NCBI GenBank assembly: GCA_037952775.1
Contig: JBANAY010000003.1
Coordinates: 4,154,001 to 4,218,000, forward strand
DNA: 64,000 nt
Reading direction: 5' to 3'
Source: Clonostachys chloroleuca
Lineage: Eukaryota > Ascomycota > Sordariomycetes > Hypocreales > Bionectriaceae
The translations under genes were made by a program, and so were the position numbers. Numbering within the stretch: position 1 is the stretch's first letter; every line of letters starts with the position of its first letter. Under the pieces are notes generated by a model. It was not told the origin of the DNA. It searched no databases and saw only the letters and a program-made list of their open reading frames with translations. Shown here piece after piece: positions 26,630-36,272 of this stretch.

Positions 26630-28804
26630 TAGTATAGTAAAATAGTATTAAATCAGAAGACCCTAGGAGCTATAGAGGGAGGAAATTTAATTAATATTAT
26701 TATAGATATTAAGATTAAGAGATATTAGCTTATAATATAGATAGACTGTAGAGTATTATATAATTATATCTTACTAGTAGTAATTAACTAACTCTGCTTA
26801 CTATAGAGAATAAAGAAGAAGTCCTATAATATTATAACTCCGGATAGAATATTATTTAAGTATAATAATAGAATTATTAACTCTAAGACTAATTACCTTA
26901 TAACTAAAATCCAAGGGAAAAAATTTAATATTATATATAACTTAGTACTATTAAATTCCTATAATATTATATTAGGATTATTATAGCTATAAGATATAAA
27001 CCTACTAATAGACTGATTTACTAGCTATATAGAGTAGAGGGATACTCTTATAAACCTATATTAGAATTAATAGAAATTAAAATTTTATTAGATATTAGAA
27101 GAATATAATAATTCCTTAATAACTAAAAGTACTACTATAAAAAACTAAAATAATAACTTATAATAATAAGTAGATATAGTAGTTATAGCTTTAATAGTAC
27201 TATAACCTAATATACTAAAAAATCTATCCTGCTAAGAATTATAATAAATAAAATAAATCTTAGGCTAGATATAAAAATTAGAATAACCCCTAGAAATAGA
27301 TTTTATTAATTAGATATATATAATAAATTAATAAAAATATAACTATAATATTAAGTTTAATCTATAGTATAAATAAGTAAGAAAGGAATAACTATAAAAA
27401 GATAAAGAGAAATACCTTAAAAGAGGAAGATTAGATTATATCCCGAAGGAATACTGGAAATATAATAAGCTATTTAAGGAAACCCTAGAAACCGGGTTAT
27501 TATAATATAGCTAATAGGATTATAAAATCTCTATTATTAATAGAGAAGAACTAGCTTTCTATAAACTCTATAACCTTATAGAACCTTAGTTATAAATACT
27601 CTATAAATATATTAATAATATATTAGCGAAAGGCTATATATAGTTATTAACTTTATCTGCAGGATACCCTGTAATATTTATACCTAAGAAAAATAGTAAA
27701 CTCTATTTAGTTATTAACTATTACTAGCTAAATAAGATTATATATAAGGATAGAATACCCTTACTACTAATTATAGAACTCAGAGACCAGTTATAGAGTA
27801 AATAGTAGTTTACTATATTAGATCTGAAGGGAGCTTATAACTTAATATAAATAAAAGAAGGAGATAAATAGAAAATAGTATTTAGAATAAAGTTTAGCTT
27901 ATATAAGTATCTTATTATACCCTTCAGACTAATAAATATATCTATAATATTCTAATAAATAATTAATTAAGTACTCTAAGAGTATCTTAATATCTTTATA
28001 GTTATATATCTTAATAATATTTTAATATTCTTAAATAATCTGGATATATATAAGGAATATATATATAAGGTCCTGAAGAAACTAGAAGATATAAATCTCC
28101 TAGTAGAACCTGAGAAAAGTTAGTTTTATATTAAGGAAGTTAACTTCCTAGGATATACTATTCAATCTAATAAAATATAAATAGAAAAAAGTAAAATTAC
28201 TATAGTTTCTAAATAAGAGGAACTAATAAATATTAAAGAAGTATAAGCCTTCTTCGGATTTACTAATTACTATTAATAATTTATTAAAAACTATAGGAAG
28301 ATTACTATACCCCTATATAATCTAATAAAGAAAGAAAAAGAATTTTAATAGAACTTAAAATACTAGCAAGTATTTACTAATATTAAACTCTATATAACTA
28401 ATAAACCTATACTATAGATATTTAATCTGAATAAGGAAGTAGAACTTAAAACTAATACTTTAGACTTTATAATTAGTATATAAATTAGCTAAAAAGATAA
28501 TAAAGGAAGATTATACCCTATAGTATTCTACTCGAAGAAACTATATAGTATAGAACTTAATTACCCTATCTATAATAAGGAATTTATAGCTATTATATAT
28601 ATATTTAAAGAATTCGAATACTACTATCTAGGAATATAATATAAGGTTAAGGTATATACAGATTATAAAAATATTTAGTATTTTACTATAACTTAATAAC
28701 TTAATAGAAGATAAATATACTATACTGAATATTTATCTAAGTTTAACTATAAAATTATATATTAAAAGGGATTAGAAAACAGAAGAGCTAATACTTTTAG
28801 CTAG
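26630..28804 (+). pseudogene. RIP-decayed pol of Ty3-A, 5' part
   Basis: It is colinear with 31610 to about 33786 of the intact element: protease, RT (the YLDD region at about 28008-28019 reads Tyr-Leu-Asn-Asn) and RNase H. It stops at 28804, where Ty3-H inserted in the sequence GCTAG. It continues at 36273. From 27061 on it is nearly identical to window position 1 onward, the Ty3-A0 copy. Confidence 0.92.
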
Positions 28805-28880
28805 TGTTACGAACAACCCCTGCGTCACCCAACCGGACCACCCTTAGTCATCACGCGTGGTCACGTGCAGCCAAAACGAT

Positions 28881-28943
28881 ATGGTTGATATCCCACATAT
28901 CAACCATAACGCCAGTCGATCATCAACGATATGGACCATATCG
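28881..28943. promoter_or_regulatory. Paired palindromes in the U3
   Basis: ATGGTTGATAT (28881-28891) and ATATCAACCAT (28897-28907) are perfect 11-bp inverted arms with a 5-bp spacer. CGATATGG (28927-28934) and CCATATCG (28936-28943) are 8-bp arms with a 1-bp spacer. Such dyads suit a dimeric DNA-binding protein. The same sites recur in the 3' LTR. Function is inferred only. Confidence 0.5.
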
Positions 28944-28958
28944 TACATATCACCCTAG

Positions 28959-28966
28959 TATATATA
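28959..28966 (+). promoter_or_regulatory. TATA box of Ty3-H LTR
   Basis: TATATATA lies 37-44 bp upstream of the predicted transcript start at about 29003. The surrounding CCTAGTATATATA is conserved in every LTR copy of the family, including those with unrelated U3 sequence. Confidence 0.6.
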
Positions 28967-29184
28967 CACATTCATTTCACTAGATAGAACACTCTTTCAG
29001 ACAGTTATCAATAACATCGTCTACGCATCTATTGTTACTAGCTCCACAATACTCGCACATTGACAGTGACTAGCATTGCACAGCCTAAGACAACCTGATC
29101 GCGCCACTCAGAACAACGCTCTGATTGGTTTAACCCCGACCTACCCTAGACCCCCGTCCAGTGTAAGTCATCCAACCGTCACAC

Positions 29185-29194
29185 ATTGATAACT
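29185..29194 (+). promoter_or_regulatory. Self-complementary primer-binding site
   Basis: ATTGATAACT, starting two bases after the LTR end, is the exact reverse complement of AGTTATCAAT at 29003-29012 inside the LTR, near the expected 5' end of the RNA. No tRNA-like TGG start is present. This is the arrangement known from Tf1-type self-priming elements, where the 5' end of the mRNA folds back as primer. Confidence 0.65.
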
Positions 29195-29248: not shown

Positions 29249-31603
29249 ATGGCCGCCGCAGTACCTCAAACTCAGCAACAGCATGCTCCTGCTGCCAACA
29301 ATAACCCACCTGCTCCAACCGTCGAGGATGACGCTATGGACGAGGACAGCGACGACAGCAGCGACGACGACAACCATGCTGAAGACATACAGCTCTTGCG
29401 AGATCAAGTTAACCAGCTCAACGCGCACCTTGCGGACACTCGCCAAGAGTTGGCCAACGCAACAGCCCTCATGGCGCAGCAAGCCGCCATGCACGCCAAC
29501 CTCCAGGCTCAAGCCGCAACCGCCGTTCAAGGAAGAGAGCCAGGACAACTGCTCAAGCCACCACCACCCGAGATGTTCGATGGAACACAAGACCAACTCC
29601 AAGGATTCGTGACTCAACTTCAAGTATACTTCAACTACTTTCCCGTTACCCTTGGAACAGACGAGAGAAAAGTTACGTACGCCCACTCACGACTCAAGGG
29701 AGGCGCACTTAACTGGTTTGAACCCGTCATGAGGGAATACCTCAGCGGACGAGGGAATCAACGAACCATCAACATCATGACAAGCTTCGATTACTTTGTG
29801 GAAGTTCTTCAGCAAACCTTCGGAATCCAGGACGAGAAGCGCAAGGCAGAACACGAAATCAACCTGCTCTCTCAGAAAGGATCATGCACAACCTTCAGCA
29901 CTAGGTACCTCCAGCTTTTGGCTAAAACTGGATGGGACGAAGGACAGGCCATGTCTCATTACTTCGACAGGCTAAAAGAAGAAGTGCAAAAAGAACTCTA
30001 CAAGGAAGATCGGCCAGCAAGCATTCACGAATACGTGACTATGGCCATAAGGATCGATGACCGGCAGTACCAGTGGCGAACTCGCAACAAAAAGACAAAC
30101 TACTTTGCCAACACTGGGAGACCACGACAACAACGCACCACAGCCTCTGGGACACACGCAGGACCCATGGAGCTAGGAGCTGTGGAGAAACGTAAATGCT
30201 ACAACTGCAACAAGGTTGGACACATTTCACCCCAATGTCCAGAACCTAAGAAAGACAAGAAGAAAGATTGGAAACCTGCCAAGGATGGCAAGAAGCAATT
30301 GGGAGCAATTGGGAAAACCGATACCAAAGTCTTGGGAATGATGCACAAAATCGACCGAGAAGAAACTCCTACGACTATTGTGATTCCTAAGTACCCTCTA
30401 AGAGACGCACCCATTTTTCAAGAAGTACTGGAACCTGAGGAACGCGCAAAACTCAGTGTGGCCAGGAAACGACAAGAAGAAATCCAACAGATCTTCCAAG
30501 AGCTTAAGAAAAAGCTTGAACGAGGGGAACCGGTCCTAGGATTTGGACCACCCACCAAATACGAATATATGTTTTGCTATGCCAACGGAGTCATTCCACG
30601 AAACTCCACTGAAAAAGAACAATACTGGCAGACAAGGATGGAAATCGAAGCCGAACACAACGAACTCCACGCATATCATCAAGAGAAGATGCGGGAACAA
30701 CATCCAGACGTATCAGAGGAACTGGTCATTTTTGGAAACAACACTATCAGTGCCATACGGCTCGGTAACGGCGCATATGAAATACCGACCTGCATGAAGA
30801 CAACATGGACGCACGACCACCCTCTGGAATCATGGATGACCTGCTACAATAATCAGTGCCGAGTACATTGGACAGAAAAGGCCAAAAACGATTTCTTTCC
30901 ATGCCCTAACGGAAGAATACCCGACAAATACACCGCAGAACAGACGCAACGATTCACGTACCGACGACAGGGTACAAAACAATATGCCATCTTTGAGGAA
31001 GACTTGGAAGAATACCCTGAAGAATGCACCTACGGCGAACTACCAGCAGAATTGTGTACTGAACCAAGGTGCAAGGTTCACAAAAAGGCCAAAATCGAAT
31101 TATGGCACAAGAACAAGGACCTCGAAGATCAAGCAACGGCTGAATGCAACAGTCGAATCGAACGATGCCGCAACTGGAAGTGCAGGAACCACCTGGAAGC
31201 CAAAACGATAGCGCTAGAACTGGCTAAGTACGGTGACGATGACACAACCCCTGCCAAGACACACCTCCAACAGCATCAGCAGTGGGAAGAAGAAATAAGA
31301 CAACGCCGCGAACAAGGCGCGCCATCCCCAACGGATAGCGAAGAAAGCAGCGACACGGAGGAACAGGAAATCACCTCCACCGACGAAAAAGAATGGGACA
31401 AAGCTCACTCTGACGATGGAATACCCACAATCATCAACGAACTAAATGATTGGAAGAGGAAATACAAACAATTTATCCCTGGCCACGCAGACGAGCCAAG
31501 AACCCTTGCGGATATCCTGAAATGGGTACCCAAGAACGAAGAAGAGCGAGAACAGCTCGAACAACGAGTCAACCAGGCAAAAAACGACACGAACCGTCTG
31601 TAA
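29249..31603 (+). CDS. gag: Gag polyprotein, 784 aa
   Basis: This is the structural protein of the retrotransposon particle. Start: the first ATG (29249) in a frame that is open from 29186 without an earlier ATG. Seen in order: an acidic low-complexity stretch (residues about 20-48); a coiled coil (about 48-90); a retrotransposon-Gag capsid-like domain (about 105-260, with Leu-Lys-Gly-Gly-Ala-Leu-Asn-Trp); a CCHC zinc knuckle C317-x2-C320-x4-H325-x4-C330 that binds RNA; then an unusually long 450-aa extension. The extension holds three C-x4-C-x2-H motifs at residues 532, 603 and 640, and a Glu-rich tail. The stop is TAA at 31601-31603, 16 nt after the slippery site. Gag of most Ty3 elements is much shorter, so the extension is notable. 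Confidence 0.93.
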   Translation: MAAAVPQTQQQHAPAANNNPPAPTVEDDAMDEDSDDSSDDDNHAEDIQLLRDQVNQLNAHLADTRQELANATALMAQQAAMHANLQAQAATAVQGREPGQLLKPPPPEMFDGTQDQLQGFVTQLQVYFNYFPVTLGTDERKVTYAHSRLKGGALNWFEPVMREYLSGRGNQRTINIMTSFDYFVEVLQQTFGIQDEKRKAEHEINLLSQKGSCTTFSTRYLQLLAKTGWDEGQAMSHYFDRLKEEVQKELYKEDRPASIHEYVTMAIRIDDRQYQWRTRNKKTNYFANTGRPRQQRTTASGTHAGPMELGAVEKRKCYNCNKVGHISPQCPEPKKDKKKDWKPAKDGKKQLGAIGKTDTKVLGMMHKIDREETPTTIVIPKYPLRDAPIFQEVLEPEERAKLSVARKRQEEIQQIFQELKKKLERGEPVLGFGPPTKYEYMFCYANGVIPRNSTEKEQYWQTRMEIEAEHNELHAYHQEKMREQHPDVSEELVIFGNNTISAIRLGNGAYEIPTCMKTTWTHDHPLESWMTCYNNQCRVHWTEKAKNDFFPCPNGRIPDKYTAEQTQRFTYRRQGTKQYAIFEEDLEEYPEECTYGELPAELCTEPRCKVHKKAKIELWHKNKDLEDQATAECNSRIERCRNWKCRNHLEAKTIALELAKYGDDDTTPAKTHLQQHQQWEEEIRQRREQGAPSPTDSEESSDTEEQEITSTDEKEWDKAHSDDGIPTIINELNDWKRKYKQFIPGHADEPRTLADILKWVPKNEEEREQLEQRVNQAKNDTNRL

Positions 31604-31614
31604 CGGGGCTACAG
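31579..31614 (+). promoter_or_regulatory. Minus-1 frameshift site, A-AAA-AAC plus downstream fold
   Basis: AAAAAAC (31579-31585) is in the correct phase with gag (GCA AAA AAC), a canonical X-XXY-YYZ heptamer. Slipping one base back joins gag to the pol frame, which is minus 1 relative to gag. Eight bases downstream, CCGT (31594-31597) can pair with ACGG (31603-31606) and the loop CTGTA (31598-31602) with TACAG (31610-31614), a possible small pseudoknot. The zero-length first loop makes the knot doubtful; the heptamer itself is strong. Confidence 0.7.
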
Positions 31615-34600
31615 CGCGGTAAAATGATATTGAATCAGAAGACCCTAGGAGCTATAGAGGGAGGAAATTCAATCAATATCGTCACAGACATTGAGATCGA
31701 GGGACACCAGCTCACAGCATGGATAGACTGTGGAGCATCATGCAATTATATCTCACCAGCGGTGATTAACCGACTCCGCTTACCATGGAGGACAAAGAAG
31801 AAGTCCTATGATATTATAACTCCGGATGGAACGTCATTTGAGTACAACAACGGAATCATCGACTCTGAGACCGATCACCTCATAACCGAAATCCAAGGGA
31901 AAAAATTCGACGTCACATACGACTTAGTACCATTAAATTCCTATGACGTTATATTAGGATTACCATGGCTACGAGATGCGAACCCACTGATAGACTGGTT
32001 CACCGGCCGCATAGAGTGGAGGGACACTCTTACGAACCTATATCAGGATCAACGGAAATCGAAATTTCGTCAGACGTTAGAAGGACACGACGATTCCTCA
32101 ACGACTGAAAGCACCACTATAAAAAACCAAAACAACGACTCGCAACAACAAGTGGATGCAGTGGTTACAGCCTTGACGGCACCACAACCTGGTACACCAA
32201 AAAATCTATCCCGCCAAGAATTACGACGAACAAAACGAATCTTGGGCCAGATACAAAAATTAGAACGACCCCCAGAAATAGATTTCATCGATTGGACACG
32301 CATGACGAATCAACAAAAACACGACTACGACGTCAAGTTCAATCTATGGCACAAGCAAGCAAGAAAAGAACAACTACAAAAAGATGAAGAGGAACGCCTC
32401 AAAAGGGGAAGACTGGATCACATCCCGAAGGAATACCGGAAATACGACAAGCTATTTAAGGAAACCCTAGAAACCGGATTACCACAGCACAGCCAATGGG
32501 ATCACGAAATCTCCATCATCGACGGAGGAGAACCAGCCTTCCACAAACTCTACAACCTCACGGAACCTCAGTTGCAAACGCTCCGCGAATACATTGACGA
32601 TATGTTAGCAAAAGGCTACATACGGTTGTCAACTTCATCCGCAGGATATCCTGTGATGTTTGTACCAAAAAAGAATGGTAAACTCCGTTTAGTTGTCGAC
32701 TATCGCCAGCTAAATAAGATCACGCGCAAAGACAGGACACCCTTACCGCTGATTACAGAACTCAGAGACCGGTTACAGGGCAAACAGTGGTTCACCGCAC
32801 TAGATCTGAAGGGAGCTTACAACTTGATACGAATAAAAGAAGGAGACGAATGGAAAACGGCATTTAGAACGAAGTTTGGCTTATACGAGTACCTTGTTAT
32901 GCCCTTCGGACTAACAAATGCACCTGCAACATTCCAACGAATGATCAATCAAGTACTCCGGGAGTATCTTGACATCTTCGTGGTTGTATATCTCGACGAC
33001 ATTTTAATATTCTCAGACGACCTAGATACACACAAGGAACATGTGCACAAGGTCCTGAAGAAACTAGAAGATGCAAATCTCCTAGTAGAACCTGAAAAAA
33101 GTCAGTTTCATGTTAAGGAAGTCAACTTCTTAGGACACACCATTCGACCCAACGAAATACGAATGGAAAAAAGTAAAATCGCCGCAGTTTCCGAATGGGA
33201 GGAACCAACAAACGTCAAAGAAGTACAAGCCTTCCTCGGATTTGCCAATTACTACCGACGATTTATCAAAGACTACGGAAAGATCGCCGCGCCACTGCAC
33301 GATCTAACGAAGAAAGAAAAAGAATTTCGATGGAATTCAAAACATCAAGACGCATTCGACGACATCAAGAATTGTATAACCCATGAACCTGTACTACGGA
33401 TGTTCGACCCAAACAAAGAAGTAGAACTCGAAACCGACGCTTCAGATTTTGCGATCGGCGCACAAGTCAGCCAAAGGGACGACGAAGGGAGACTACACCC
33501 TGTAGCGTTCTACTCGAAGAAACTACACGGTGCAGAACTCAACTACCCCATCTATGACAAGGAATTTATGGCTATCATGCGCGCATTCGAAGAATTCGAA
33601 CACTACTGCCTGGGAACACAACATAAGGTTAAGGTATACACGGACCATAAGAATATTCAGTATTTCGCCACAACTCAACAACTCAATGGACGACAAATAC
33701 GCTACGCTGAATACTTATCCAAGTTCGACTACGAAATCATACATCGAAAAGGATCGGAAAACGGACGAGCCGATGCTCTCAGCCGGAAACCCGAGTATGA
33801 ACAAATAATCCCGAAAACCAACGGACAACTGTTCTCGACAAACGACAAAGGACATTTAGTACAACAAACTTTAGGCGCCATGCTAAAAGAAACAGCACAC
33901 GCTAAAATACAGATGGAAGCCATGCCAGACATGAAAACACTGCAGCAAGACGCAAGAATGGCACTCATCAAAGAAATTCACGAGCACCCGCTCTCAGGAC
34001 ATCAAGGAGTCAAGAAAACATTCGACAGGATAAGACAACATCATGATTACCCTGGTCTACGAAAGGACGTACAAACTGTGGTTTCAGAATGTGACACTTG
34101 CGCACGAATTAAATCCGCAAGACACAAACCATACGGAGAACTTAAACCAGTCTCAGTACCAAAACGACCATGGCAATCAATATCCTTCGACCATATTGTC
34201 AAGCTACCATTATCAACAGAACCTATGACAGGAGTACAATACGACAGTATCTTAGTCGTTATCGACAGACTCACGAAGTATGGACATTTCATTCCATACA
34301 AAGAAGCAAGTTCCGCAGAAGATCTTGCATATCAATTCCTACGACATGTGGTTAGTCACCACGGATTACCTGAAGAAATAATCTCAGACAGAGGAACGAC
34401 TTTTGCCTCTAAATTTTGGCAATCCCTTATGGCACAAATGGGTACCAAGCATAAGCTTTCGACAGCTTACCACCCCCAGAGCAATGGACAAACGGAACGT
34501 TTGAACCAAACATTGGAACAATACTTACGAGCATACGTCAATTATGAACAAGACAATTGGGTACAACTGTTGCCTACGGCTCAGATCGCGTACAACAGTT

Positions 34601-35322
34601 CAGTACAAGAATCTACTCAGCTTACGCCTATGTATGCAAACTACGGTTATGAACCGGAATTCCAGAACCGACAAACGCTCGATGGACCAGATGCACCCGC
34701 CGCCATACTCACAAAAGAAACATTACACTCGTTACACGCAGAAATGAAAACAGAATTGGAGTTCATCCAAGAAAGAATGAAAAAATACTACGATAAAACA
34801 AGATTGAAGGGACCAATCTTGAAGGAGGGAGACAAAGTCTACCTACTCCGCAAAAACATCACGACAACACGACCAAGTGATAAATTGGACTACAAAAAAC
34901 TTGGACCATTCAAAATCAAGGACAAAAAATCAGACACCAACTACGAACTATCACTACCGGATACAATGCACATCCACCCAGTTTTTCATATCTCATTACT
35001 CGAAAAAGCACCAGAAAACGCTCCAGATCAAGACCATCCCATTGAGGTCTATGAAGAAGAATACGAGCCAGAAAAAATACTAAAGAAAGAAGTCAGAAAT
35101 GGACAAACATTTTACTTCATCAAATGGAAGGGGTATACCGACAATGACAATACCTGGGAACCTGCTAGGCACCTGAAGAACTGCCAGAAGCTTGTCCGAC
35201 AGTATCACCAGGCCCAGAAACGCCCATCCCAACAAACCAAGAAGGGGAAAGCTCCACGCCCTCTTGAAGAAACACCGGATCAATCTCGATCTCCGAGAAA
35301 ACGGGCTCGGAAGAAGGAGTAA
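31585..35322 (+). CDS. pol: Pol polyprotein: protease, RT, RNase H, integrase, chromodomain
   Basis: Pol is reached by the minus-1 shift; it could otherwise start at ATG 31624, used here as residue 1 (1232 aa). Protease: Asp35-Cys-Gly-Ala, with Cys in place of the common Ser/Thr. RT: about 340-520, with catalytic Tyr-Leu-Asp-Asp at 456-459 (32989-33000). RNase H: from about 600, with Asp605 in Thr-Asp-Ala-Ser. Integrase: zinc-binding His/Cys from His786 to C823-x2-C826; catalytic Asp856, Asp922 and Glu958 with the canonical 35-residue D-E spacing. Chromodomain: about 1143-1195 (Trp-Lys-Gly-Tyr and Thr-Trp-Glu-Pro), which steers integration to modified histones in chromoviruses. All catalytic residues are present. 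The last 158 bp overlap the antisense gene tail to tail. Confidence 0.96.
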   Translation, partial: RHEPSVTGLQRGKMILNQKTLGAIEGGNSINIVTDIEIEGHQLTAWIDCGASCNYISPAVINRLRLPWRTKKKSYDIITPDGTSFEYNNGIIDSETDHLITEIQGKKFDVTYDLVPLNSYDVILGLPWLRDANPLIDWFTGRIEWRDTLTNLYQDQRKSKFRQTLEGHDDSSTTESTTIKNQNNDSQQQVDAVVTALTAPQPGTPKNLSRQELRRTKRILGQIQKLERPPEIDFIDWTRMTNQQKHDYDVKFNLWHKQARKEQLQKDEEERLKRGRLDHIPKEYRKYDKLFKETLETGLPQHSQWDHEISIIDGGEPAFHKLYNLTEPQLQTLREYIDDMLAKGYIRLSTSSAGYPVMFVPKKNGKLRLVVDYRQLNKITRKDRTPLPLITELRDRLQGKQWFTALDLKGAYNLIRIKEGDEWKTAFRTKFGLYEYLVMPFGLTNAPATFQRMINQVLREYLDIFVVVYLDDILIFSDDLDTHKEHVHKVLKKLEDANLLVEPEKSQFHVKEVNFLGHTIRPNEIRMEKSKIAAVSEWEEPTNVKEVQAFLGFANYYRRFIKDYGKIAAPLHDLTKKEKEFRWNSKHQDAFDDIKNCITHEPVLRMFDPNKEVELETDASDFAIGAQVSQRDDEGRLHPVAFYSKKLHGAELNYPIYDKEFMAIMRAFEEFEHYCLGTQHKVKVYTDHKNIQYFATTQQLNGRQIRYAEYLSKFDYEIIHRKGSENGRADALSRKPEYEQIIPKTNGQLFSTNDKGHLVQQTLGAMLKETAHAKIQMEAMPDMKTLQQDARMALIKEIHEHPLSGHQGVKKTFDRIRQHHDYPGLRKDVQTVVSECDTCARIKSARHKPYGELKPVSVPKRPWQSISFDHIVKLPLSTEPMTGVQYDSILVVIDRLTKYGHFIPYKEASSAEDLAYQFLRHVVSHHGLPEEIISDRGTTFASKFWQSLMAQMGTKHKLSTAYHPQSNGQTERLNQTLEQYLRAYVNYEQDNWVQLLPTAQIAYNSSVQESTQLTPMYANYGYEPEFQNRQTLDGPDAPAAILTKETLHSLHAEMKTELEFIQERMKKYYDKTRLKGPILKEGDKVYLLRKNITTTRPSDKLDYKKLGPFKIKDKKSDTNYELSLPDTMHIHPVFHISLLEKAPENAPDQDHPIEVYEEEYEPEKILKKEVRNGQTFYFIKWKGYTDNDNTWEPARHLKNCQKLVRQYHQAQKRPSQQTKKGKAPRPLEETPDQSRSPRKRARKKE

Positions 35323-35791
35323 TCACCGAAGAAGAAGCCGCCTTGCGGGCTGCCTCCTCTGCCTCCTCACGTTCCACCCGCTCCAATTCCTCGACACTGT
35401 CGATACCACGAGACACCGCTCGCATCATCTTATCGAGCCACATTTTCTTTTGTTTACGCAAACGCCGCACTTTGGCACTTGCGCGCTCCAATTCTTCCTC
35501 TGCCGCGTCCAGCTCCTCTTCGGCCCGCTGATGATGAACCCCAATACGGCGAATCTGCTGCGCAGATAACCCCTGAATGTCACAGCGCGATTGACCGTGC
35601 GACACGCATTCCACACAACGAGAAGAATCCGAAGGAGACGCCTGACAAGAGCGCTTGCCACGGCCCTCGCAGTAGGAACACACTGGCATGACGGAAGGAT
35701 TGTTCAGAATGGTAAAAAGAAGAGCGTTCCTACGAATTGTGGACGACTCAGTTCTTGACGCTTTCGATTTTGAAATACGACTAGACGACAT
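35165..35791 (-). CDS. Antisense Zn(II)2Cys6-like, coiled-coil protein, 208 aa
   Basis: This open frame lies on the strand opposite to the retrotransposon, between pol and the 3' LTR. It starts at ATG 35789-35791 in a good context (CACC before the ATG), 97 bp inside the LTR. Residues 38-70 form C38-x2-C41-x7-C49-x9-C59-x2-C62-x7-C70, two equal half-sites very close to the fungal Zn(II)2Cys6 cluster (C-x2-C-x6-C). Residues about 85-150 are a charged coiled coil (Glu/Arg/Lys/Leu-rich, Arg-Leu-Arg-Lys-Gln). The tail is Ser/Pro-rich. The layout matches fungal zinc-cluster transcription factors: DNA-binding cluster then dimerisation coil. The 3' LTR could drive it. The last 158 bp overlap pol antiparallel. 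Homologues in the other Ty3 copies argue it is real. A DNA-binding or regulatory role is inference. Confidence 0.72.
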   Translation of the reverse strand: MSSSRISKSKASRTESSTIRRNALLFTILNNPSVMPVCSYCEGRGKRSCQASPSDSSRCVECVSHGQSRCDIQGLSAQQIRRIGVHHQRAEEELDAAEEELERASAKVRRLRKQKKMWLDKMMRAVSRGIDSVEELERVEREEAEEAARKAASSSVITPSSEPVFSEIEIDPVFLQEGVELSPSWFVGMGVSGPGDTVGQASGSSSGA

Positions 35792-35874
35792 GGTGTTAGC
35801 ATGAATGATGAAGGAAGGAAGTTGGGCAACGCACCAACTAGGCCGCTGAATATGGTCTTGGGGACAAAACCAAC

Positions 35875-35883
35875 GAGAGGGGG
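35875..35883 (+). promoter_or_regulatory. Polypurine tract of Ty3-H
   Basis: GAGAGGGGG ends 5 bp before the 3' LTR. A purine run at this position primes plus-strand DNA synthesis. The equivalent tract is kept in the decayed copies (about 38348-38356 in Ty3-A). Confidence 0.8.
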
Positions 35884-35888
35884 CATCA

Positions 35889-36267
35889 TGTTACGAACAA
35901 CCCCTGCGTCACCCAACCGGACCACCCTTAGTCATCACGCGTGGTCACGTGCAGCCAAAACGATATGGTTGATATCCCACATATCAACCATAACGCCAGT
36001 CGATCATCAACGATATGGACCATATCGTACATATCACCCTAGTATATATACACATTCATTTCACTAGATAGAACACTCTTTCAGACAGTTATCAATAACA
36101 TCGTCTACGCATCTATTGTTACTAGCTCCACAATACTCGCACATTGACAGTGACTAGCATTGCACAGCCTAAGACAACCTGATCGCGCCACTCAGAACAA
36201 CGCTCTGATTGGTTTAACCCCGACCTACCCTAGACCCCCGTCCAGTGTAAGTCATCCAACCGTCACA
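35889..36267 (+). repeat. 3' LTR of Ty3-H
   Basis: This 379-bp LTR is identical by eye to 28805-29183. Its left (U3) side faces the antisense gene and could supply that gene's promoter. Confidence 0.96.
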
Positions 36268-36272
36268 GCTAG

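Follow-up and report, generated by a model that had tools for sequence, protein, structure and literature searches.

We report that an intact chromovirus of Clonostachys chloroleuca carries, antisense between pol and the 3' LTR, a gene (aORF) whose protein is predicted to join a Zn2Cys6-like DNA-binding domain to a coiled coil. Three subfamilies of the element occur in one genome, M (that of the window), S2 and S3, and as judged from their sequences they are near-identical in pol and R-U5 and differ jointly in aORF and U3, which is what is new here. The window is the whole stretch of 64,000 nucleotides that was analysed (contig JBANAY010000003.1, positions 4,154,001 to 4,218,000, forward strand). 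The conserved protein may well bind the repeats of its own U3 and would then activate LTR transcription, a reading to which we give an even chance. An antisense extra gene thereby gets a likely job, its likely target lying a few hundred bases off, and the three natural cassettes make the regulator idea testable; if it is true, this is a retrotransposon with a transcription factor of its own, whose specificity it alters by recombination.

The features of the element are given below by window coordinates and strand.

28800-28804, no strand: 5' target-site duplication GCTAG
28805-29183, plus: 5' LTR, 379 nt, with the same sequence as the 3' LTR
28877-28911, no strand: U3 inverted repeat CGATATGGTTGATAT-5-ATATCAACCATAACG, 14/15 pairs (3' LTR copy 35961-35995)
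28926-28944, no strand: U3 palindrome ACGATATGG-A-CCATATCGT (3' LTR copy 36010-36028)
28958-28966, plus: TATA-like box of the sense promoter, assigned from sequence (3' LTR copy 36042-36050)
29003-29012, plus: AGTTATCAAT, candidate self-primer, complementary to 29185-29194 just past the LTR
29249-31603, plus: gag, with Ty3 capsid and CCHC knuckle
31612-35322, plus: pol, encoding PR, RT, RNase H, IN and chromodomain, not in the gag frame
35165-35791, minus: aORF, 208 aa and stop, ATG start
35168-35320, minus: acidic C-terminal tail of aORF, residues 158-208, on the strand opposite the pol tail
35323-36036, no strand: putative exchangeable cassette of aORF cysteine domain and coil, leader, polypurine tract and U3 (borders as in S2; S3 left border near 35211)
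35411-35563, minus: long helix or coiled coil of aORF, residues 77-127
35582-35680, minus: six-cysteine, Zn2Cys6-like domain of aORF, residues 38-70
35875-35883, plus: polypurine tract GAGAGGGGG, assigned from sequence
35889-36267, plus: 3' LTR, 379 nt, its U3 being also the upstream region of aORF
36268-36272, no strand: 3' target-site duplication GCTAG

The chromovirus is complete and is nested inside the pol of a RIP-damaged relative. An earlier note on this DNA had called it intact, and this is borne out by the identical 379-nt LTRs, GCTAG on both sides, gag, and a pol with chromodomain. The order is that of chromoviruses, PR-RT-RH-IN followed by the chromodomain after rve (Chromo E 1.4e-16, residues 1151-1200); the pol start at 31612 is uncertain, the frame being open from 31450.

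The 208-aa antisense frame between pol and the 3' LTR was likewise found as that note had it, at 35165-35791 on the minus strand with an ATG start. Between this ATG and the 3' LTR are 97 bp, and the frame overlaps the 3' end of pol by 158 bp (35165-35322); the earlier note mentions neither this overlap nor that aORF and U3 change together. The identical protein is encoded at 7 places in the same genome, window copy included, and 80 more matches are decayed (79/80 with stops), some of them being pieces of one copy. The 3' flanks of the seven intact copies (L001-L007) are AT-rich, with a GC of 13-33% over 1024 bases, and resemble RIP-damaged DNA. Pairing with RT was surveyed for the best 40 of 87 RT matches against 85 of 87 aORF matches: in 25/40 the opposite strand has an aORF of M or S2 type 1208-1464 bp past the RT segment, in 14 of the remaining 15 one of S3 type lies within 2.2 kb (25 of 50 S3 matches used), and some type is present beside RT in 39/40.

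RIP converts C to T and G to A and nothing else; any further differences between damaged copies therefore predate the damage or arose apart from it. Such differences were taken from 20 RIP-damaged copies of the same subfamily, out of 41 loci (L008-L048), and were compared with 5000 null draws. In the aORF frame 53 of 77 distinct differences are synonymous (null 24.3, sd 4.0; 0/5000 draws), and among those common to at least 3 copies the count is 22/27 (null 8.5, sd 2.4; 0/5000); in the remaining five frames 1, 1, 4, 14 and 2 of the 27 are synonymous. Within S3 the same comparison holds 1 transversion site, too few to judge. The synonymous excess amounts to purifying selection on the antisense protein, and by these comparisons aORF is a selected protein gene. 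The earlier note had weighed a frame without homologues outside this copy, or one drifting neutrally among copies; neither fits 138 homologous proteins (E<=0.01) and the mostly synonymous shared changes. An open frame arising by chance antisense to the end of pol would suit the 158 bp overlap, and long antisense frames do arise; it was rejected as hardly credible, because the protein is encoded identically at 7 places, has 138 matching proteins with conserved cysteines and changes mostly at synonymous sites.

The motif C-x2-C-x7-C-x9-C-x2-C-x7-C at residues 38-70 and the helix behind it, with a hydrophobic period of 3.5 residues, agree with the earlier description of six cysteines and a coiled coil. 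The reading of this architecture as that of a zinc-cluster factor held in part. The Zn2Cys6 spacing pattern is C-x2-C-x6-C-x5-12-C-x2-C-x6-8-C, and the window protein departs from it with a first loop of x7, not x6. All ten VIA matches listed for the predicted core are Zn2Cys6 factors, at low Z, and in hhalign all six cysteines fall in register with five Zn2Cys6 domains, weakly (prob 11.5). Pfam Zn_clus (PF00172), to which the earlier note had pointed, gave no match to the window protein at E<=10, and among 57 family members it gave 6/57 at E<=1 (best 0.12), the gathering score not being reached; Foldseek returned no significant match, and none of any kind for the full model. The PDB search by sequence reached E 0.017 at best. 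The conserved cysteines, the coil and the VIA matches thus speak for a Zn2Cys6-like protein with a predicted DNA-binding domain and coiled coil, which differs from fungal Zn2Cys6 factors such as Gal4, Hap1 and Leu3 in its x7 loop and in falling below the Pfam cut-off. Other Pfam identities were rejected: the window protein has a weak TPR match (E 0.0087) and some members have weak CENP-Q, HAUS1 or DUF465 matches, all of which we read as coiled-coil composition.

One protein search found the 138 proteins, and profile searches found 217 and 254 at E<=0.001. Among the matches listed (the best 120 per search), all relatives with an organism name are filamentous ascomycetes, including members of Colletotrichum, Cordyceps, Pyricularia, Hirsutella, Cryphonectria, Fusarium, Metarhizium, Apiospora, Gaeumannomyces and Cytospora. 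Of the proteins found, 57 were taken into the alignment, where C38, C41, R112, W118, R128, L136 and E140 never vary, while at least 90% of the members keep C49, C59, C62 and C70. The six-cysteine motif occurs in 120 of 145 proteins fetched, with the spacing of the window in 85 and Zn_clus-like spacing in 30; the first loop is x7 in 86/120 motif-bearing relatives as in the window protein, x6 in 30/120, and the full PROSITE-type pattern is present in 1/145. The C-terminal tail, surveyed in the 126 of 158 proteins that could be parsed, is net negative in 122/126 and holds Trp in 115/126. Across these sequences most family members are thus shown to keep six cysteines, coil and acidic tail. In viral_contigs the 94 pattern matches included no relative.

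The subfamilies were compared with the intact element on transversions alone, a class of change that RIP does not produce. The pooled comparison covers 44 of the 60 loci L001-L060, namely 24 M (6 identical to the window copy), 14 S2 and 6 S3, leaving out L003 (the window copy), L027, L040-L047 and L049-L054. Against M, the IN-chromo stretch differs by 0.3% in S2, whose loci cover only about 490 of its 1165 nt, and by 0.4% in S3; R-U5 differs by 0.7% and 0.9%, and RT by 0.2-0.9% in the three elements tested. The coil and cysteine regions of aORF, in contrast, differ by 11-16% (S2 and S3, each pooled over its copies), the leader by 13% in S2 and 9% in S3, and U3 by 16% and 14%, with 2.4-2.5% in the polypurine tract and LTR tip between leader and U3. 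In S2 the pol tail follows pol (0.7%), in S3 it follows the cassette (11%). The borders are the pol stop (S2) or a place just within the pol tail (S3), and at the other end the TATA box. The 24 M copies differ from the intact element by 0.4-0.7% in aORF, 3.0% in U3 and 3.2% in R-U5, the LTR values being partly misalignment, with L017, L026 and L029 included whose R-U5 alignments (77/203, 35/207, 25/199) run into other sequence, and with L010 at 21/483 in IN. On the 5' side, two S3 elements and one S2 element show 10-22% in U3, 0.9-1.3% in R-U5, 0/65 in the PBS-leader, 0.1-0.2% in PR and 0-0.6% in gag, the first half of S2 gag excepted. In L062 the S2 gag differs by 1.7-2.9% in its N-terminal and capsid parts and by 0.4% beyond, possibly a second exchange patch.

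Third positions of pol carry just 0.4-1.1% transversions (4, 5 and 10 of 901), which makes divergence of the aORF-U3 block on the spot unlikely; exchange with distant relatives is the simplest account. That aORF and U3 change together is the most telling evidence for regulation: since the gene adjoins U3 and its cysteine domain changes with U3, a regulator of its own U3 is the simplest reading. Given this adjacency, aORF and U3 could also just hitchhike, one template switch in the RNA moving both. The protein would then have its task in another place, such as the import of the pre-integration complex into the nucleus or, next to the chromodomain, the targeting of integration. Products of certain other antisense aORFs have been termed nuclear (PMC7264820), but the M U3 palindromes and the end of the block at the TATA box would be left unexplained, and we hold this account to be quite improbable.

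The S3 protein is a distant homologue of the window protein (27% identity, hhalign E 1.2e-10), and its cysteine piece holds more basic residues. This piece had no Pfam match; in the PDB it matched leucine-rich repeat proteins, with an E of 1.9e-5 that adds up weak stretches, and this was judged to be chance. The cysteine and coil pieces of the S3 gene lie in different frames in 7/7 loci shown (L051, L055-L060; six places, L051 and L055 being one), with no indel between copies, and the antisense strand holds four candidate introns with one common acceptor and CTGAT branch sites. A real intron here, if true, would mean that the gene is transcribed and spliced. Among 253 pairs from 23 named proteins of Pyricularia oryzae, 68 combine a likeness of at least 90% in the tail with less than 70% in the cysteine and coil parts, and the reverse pattern, alike cysteine and coil parts with different tails, occurs in none; this suggests the same exchange in another genus. 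P0055, P0060, P0071 and P0091 of this species have near-identical tails and differing cysteine and coil parts, and P0055 has an internal duplication. L052 (G000:C3:24643500-24650500) is a different, lightly damaged chromovirus-like copy; in this stretch the antisense gene had no match.

The M U3 has two palindromes with a common arm CGATATGG in the roughly 80 bp 5' of the TATA box, equalled by 0/2000 shuffles, and CATATC occurs in it five times with both strands counted (0/1000 shuffles). In the S3 U3 there is a tandem 20-mer (17/20; maximum 15 in 60 shuffles), each copy with TCACT/AGTGA arms, and no significant palindrome (P 0.27). The S2 U3 has ATAATCCT/AGGATTAT arms (P 0.03; top two P 0.08) and ATGATCC three times (P 0.049), with direct repeats not above shuffles. 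The palindromes of S2 and S3 are weaker than those of M.

In the mechanism that we propose, aORF would be expressed, its product would fold into a Zn2Cys6-like domain and a coil, probably as a zinc-binding dimer, and would bind repeated sites in the U3 of its own LTRs. The same U3 precedes gag-pol in the 5' LTR and aORF in the 3' LTR, so that both promoters could be under the control of one protein. Activation rather than repression is favoured by the acidic, Trp-bearing tail and by sites 5' of the TATA box; regulator and U3 sites would travel together as an exchangeable cassette. Each element thus likely carries its own matched switch. It is possible, at somewhat less than even chance, that a common gag-pol core with interchangeable regulator-U3 cassettes forms separate regulatory groups within a genome, comparable to the immunity regions of lambdoid phages.

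The same protein and sites could also serve repression, copies restraining each other and a new cassette escaping, as in phage immunity or Ty1 copy number control. The diversity sits in regulator and U3 with pol and R-U5 near-identical, as would be expected if a newcomer profits when the residents' regulator misses it; repression with cassette escape would explain this diversity at least as well as activation. In yeast, a Ty1 tester with canonical gag is freely mobile where strains hold only divergent-gag elements (PMC7055915). The tail and the placing of the sites 5' of the TATA box rather than over the start look more activator-like, however, and we regard a repressor as unlikely.

The VANDAL elements of Arabidopsis are DNA transposons. 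Their VANC proteins bind the non-coding repeats of their own elements and remove silencing, and the aORF protein could be a sequence-specific anti-silencing protein of this sort, which we consider improbable. From one related element to another the VANC proteins differ, and so do the repeats that they target (PMC5735166), and the AT-rich 3' flanks of the seven intact copies would also suit. The nearest analogues in logic are VANC and Ty1 copy number control. VANC is likewise encoded by the element, with repeat targets that vary as it does; the plant elements are of another kind, with another protein, acting on silencing. The Ty1 system (p22, divergent Gag) shares self-encoded control and a specificity that moves by recombination (PMC7055915), but its factor is capsid-derived and no antisense DNA-binding protein is involved.

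The brtn gene of the Boty-like chromoviruses of Botrytis cinerea was reportedly described by Zhao in 2011. It resembles aORF by position, as an antisense gene between pol and the 3' LTR of a chromodomain element, so the existence of such a gene is not new. Among the matches listed for the aORF protein (best 120 per search) none is named Botrytis. HBZ of HTLV-1, also an antisense gene, is read from the side of the 3' LTR and encodes a coiled-coil nuclear regulator, but it is a bZIP protein of an unrelated virus. For HTLV, PMC7264820 mentions an antisense promoter in the 3' LTR; according to it, LTR retrotransposons with an additional antisense gene have been on record since 1997 from plants and since 2011 from Boty, with no function known for these genes. 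A zinc cluster or cassette exchange is not described for brtn in the available portions of PMC7264820, PMC8365987, PMC4227169 and PMC5987419, and a limited literature search found no zinc cluster in such an antisense gene.

Two smaller observations concern the sense strand. The C-terminal part of gag (30401-31603) has Trp/Cys/His patterns and a weak WCCH match below the cut-off (E 0.0086). Positions 29003-29012, in the likely region of the RNA start, and 29185-29194, just past the 5' LTR, are complementary over 10/10 bp, which suggests possible Tf1-like self-priming in place of a tRNA primer.
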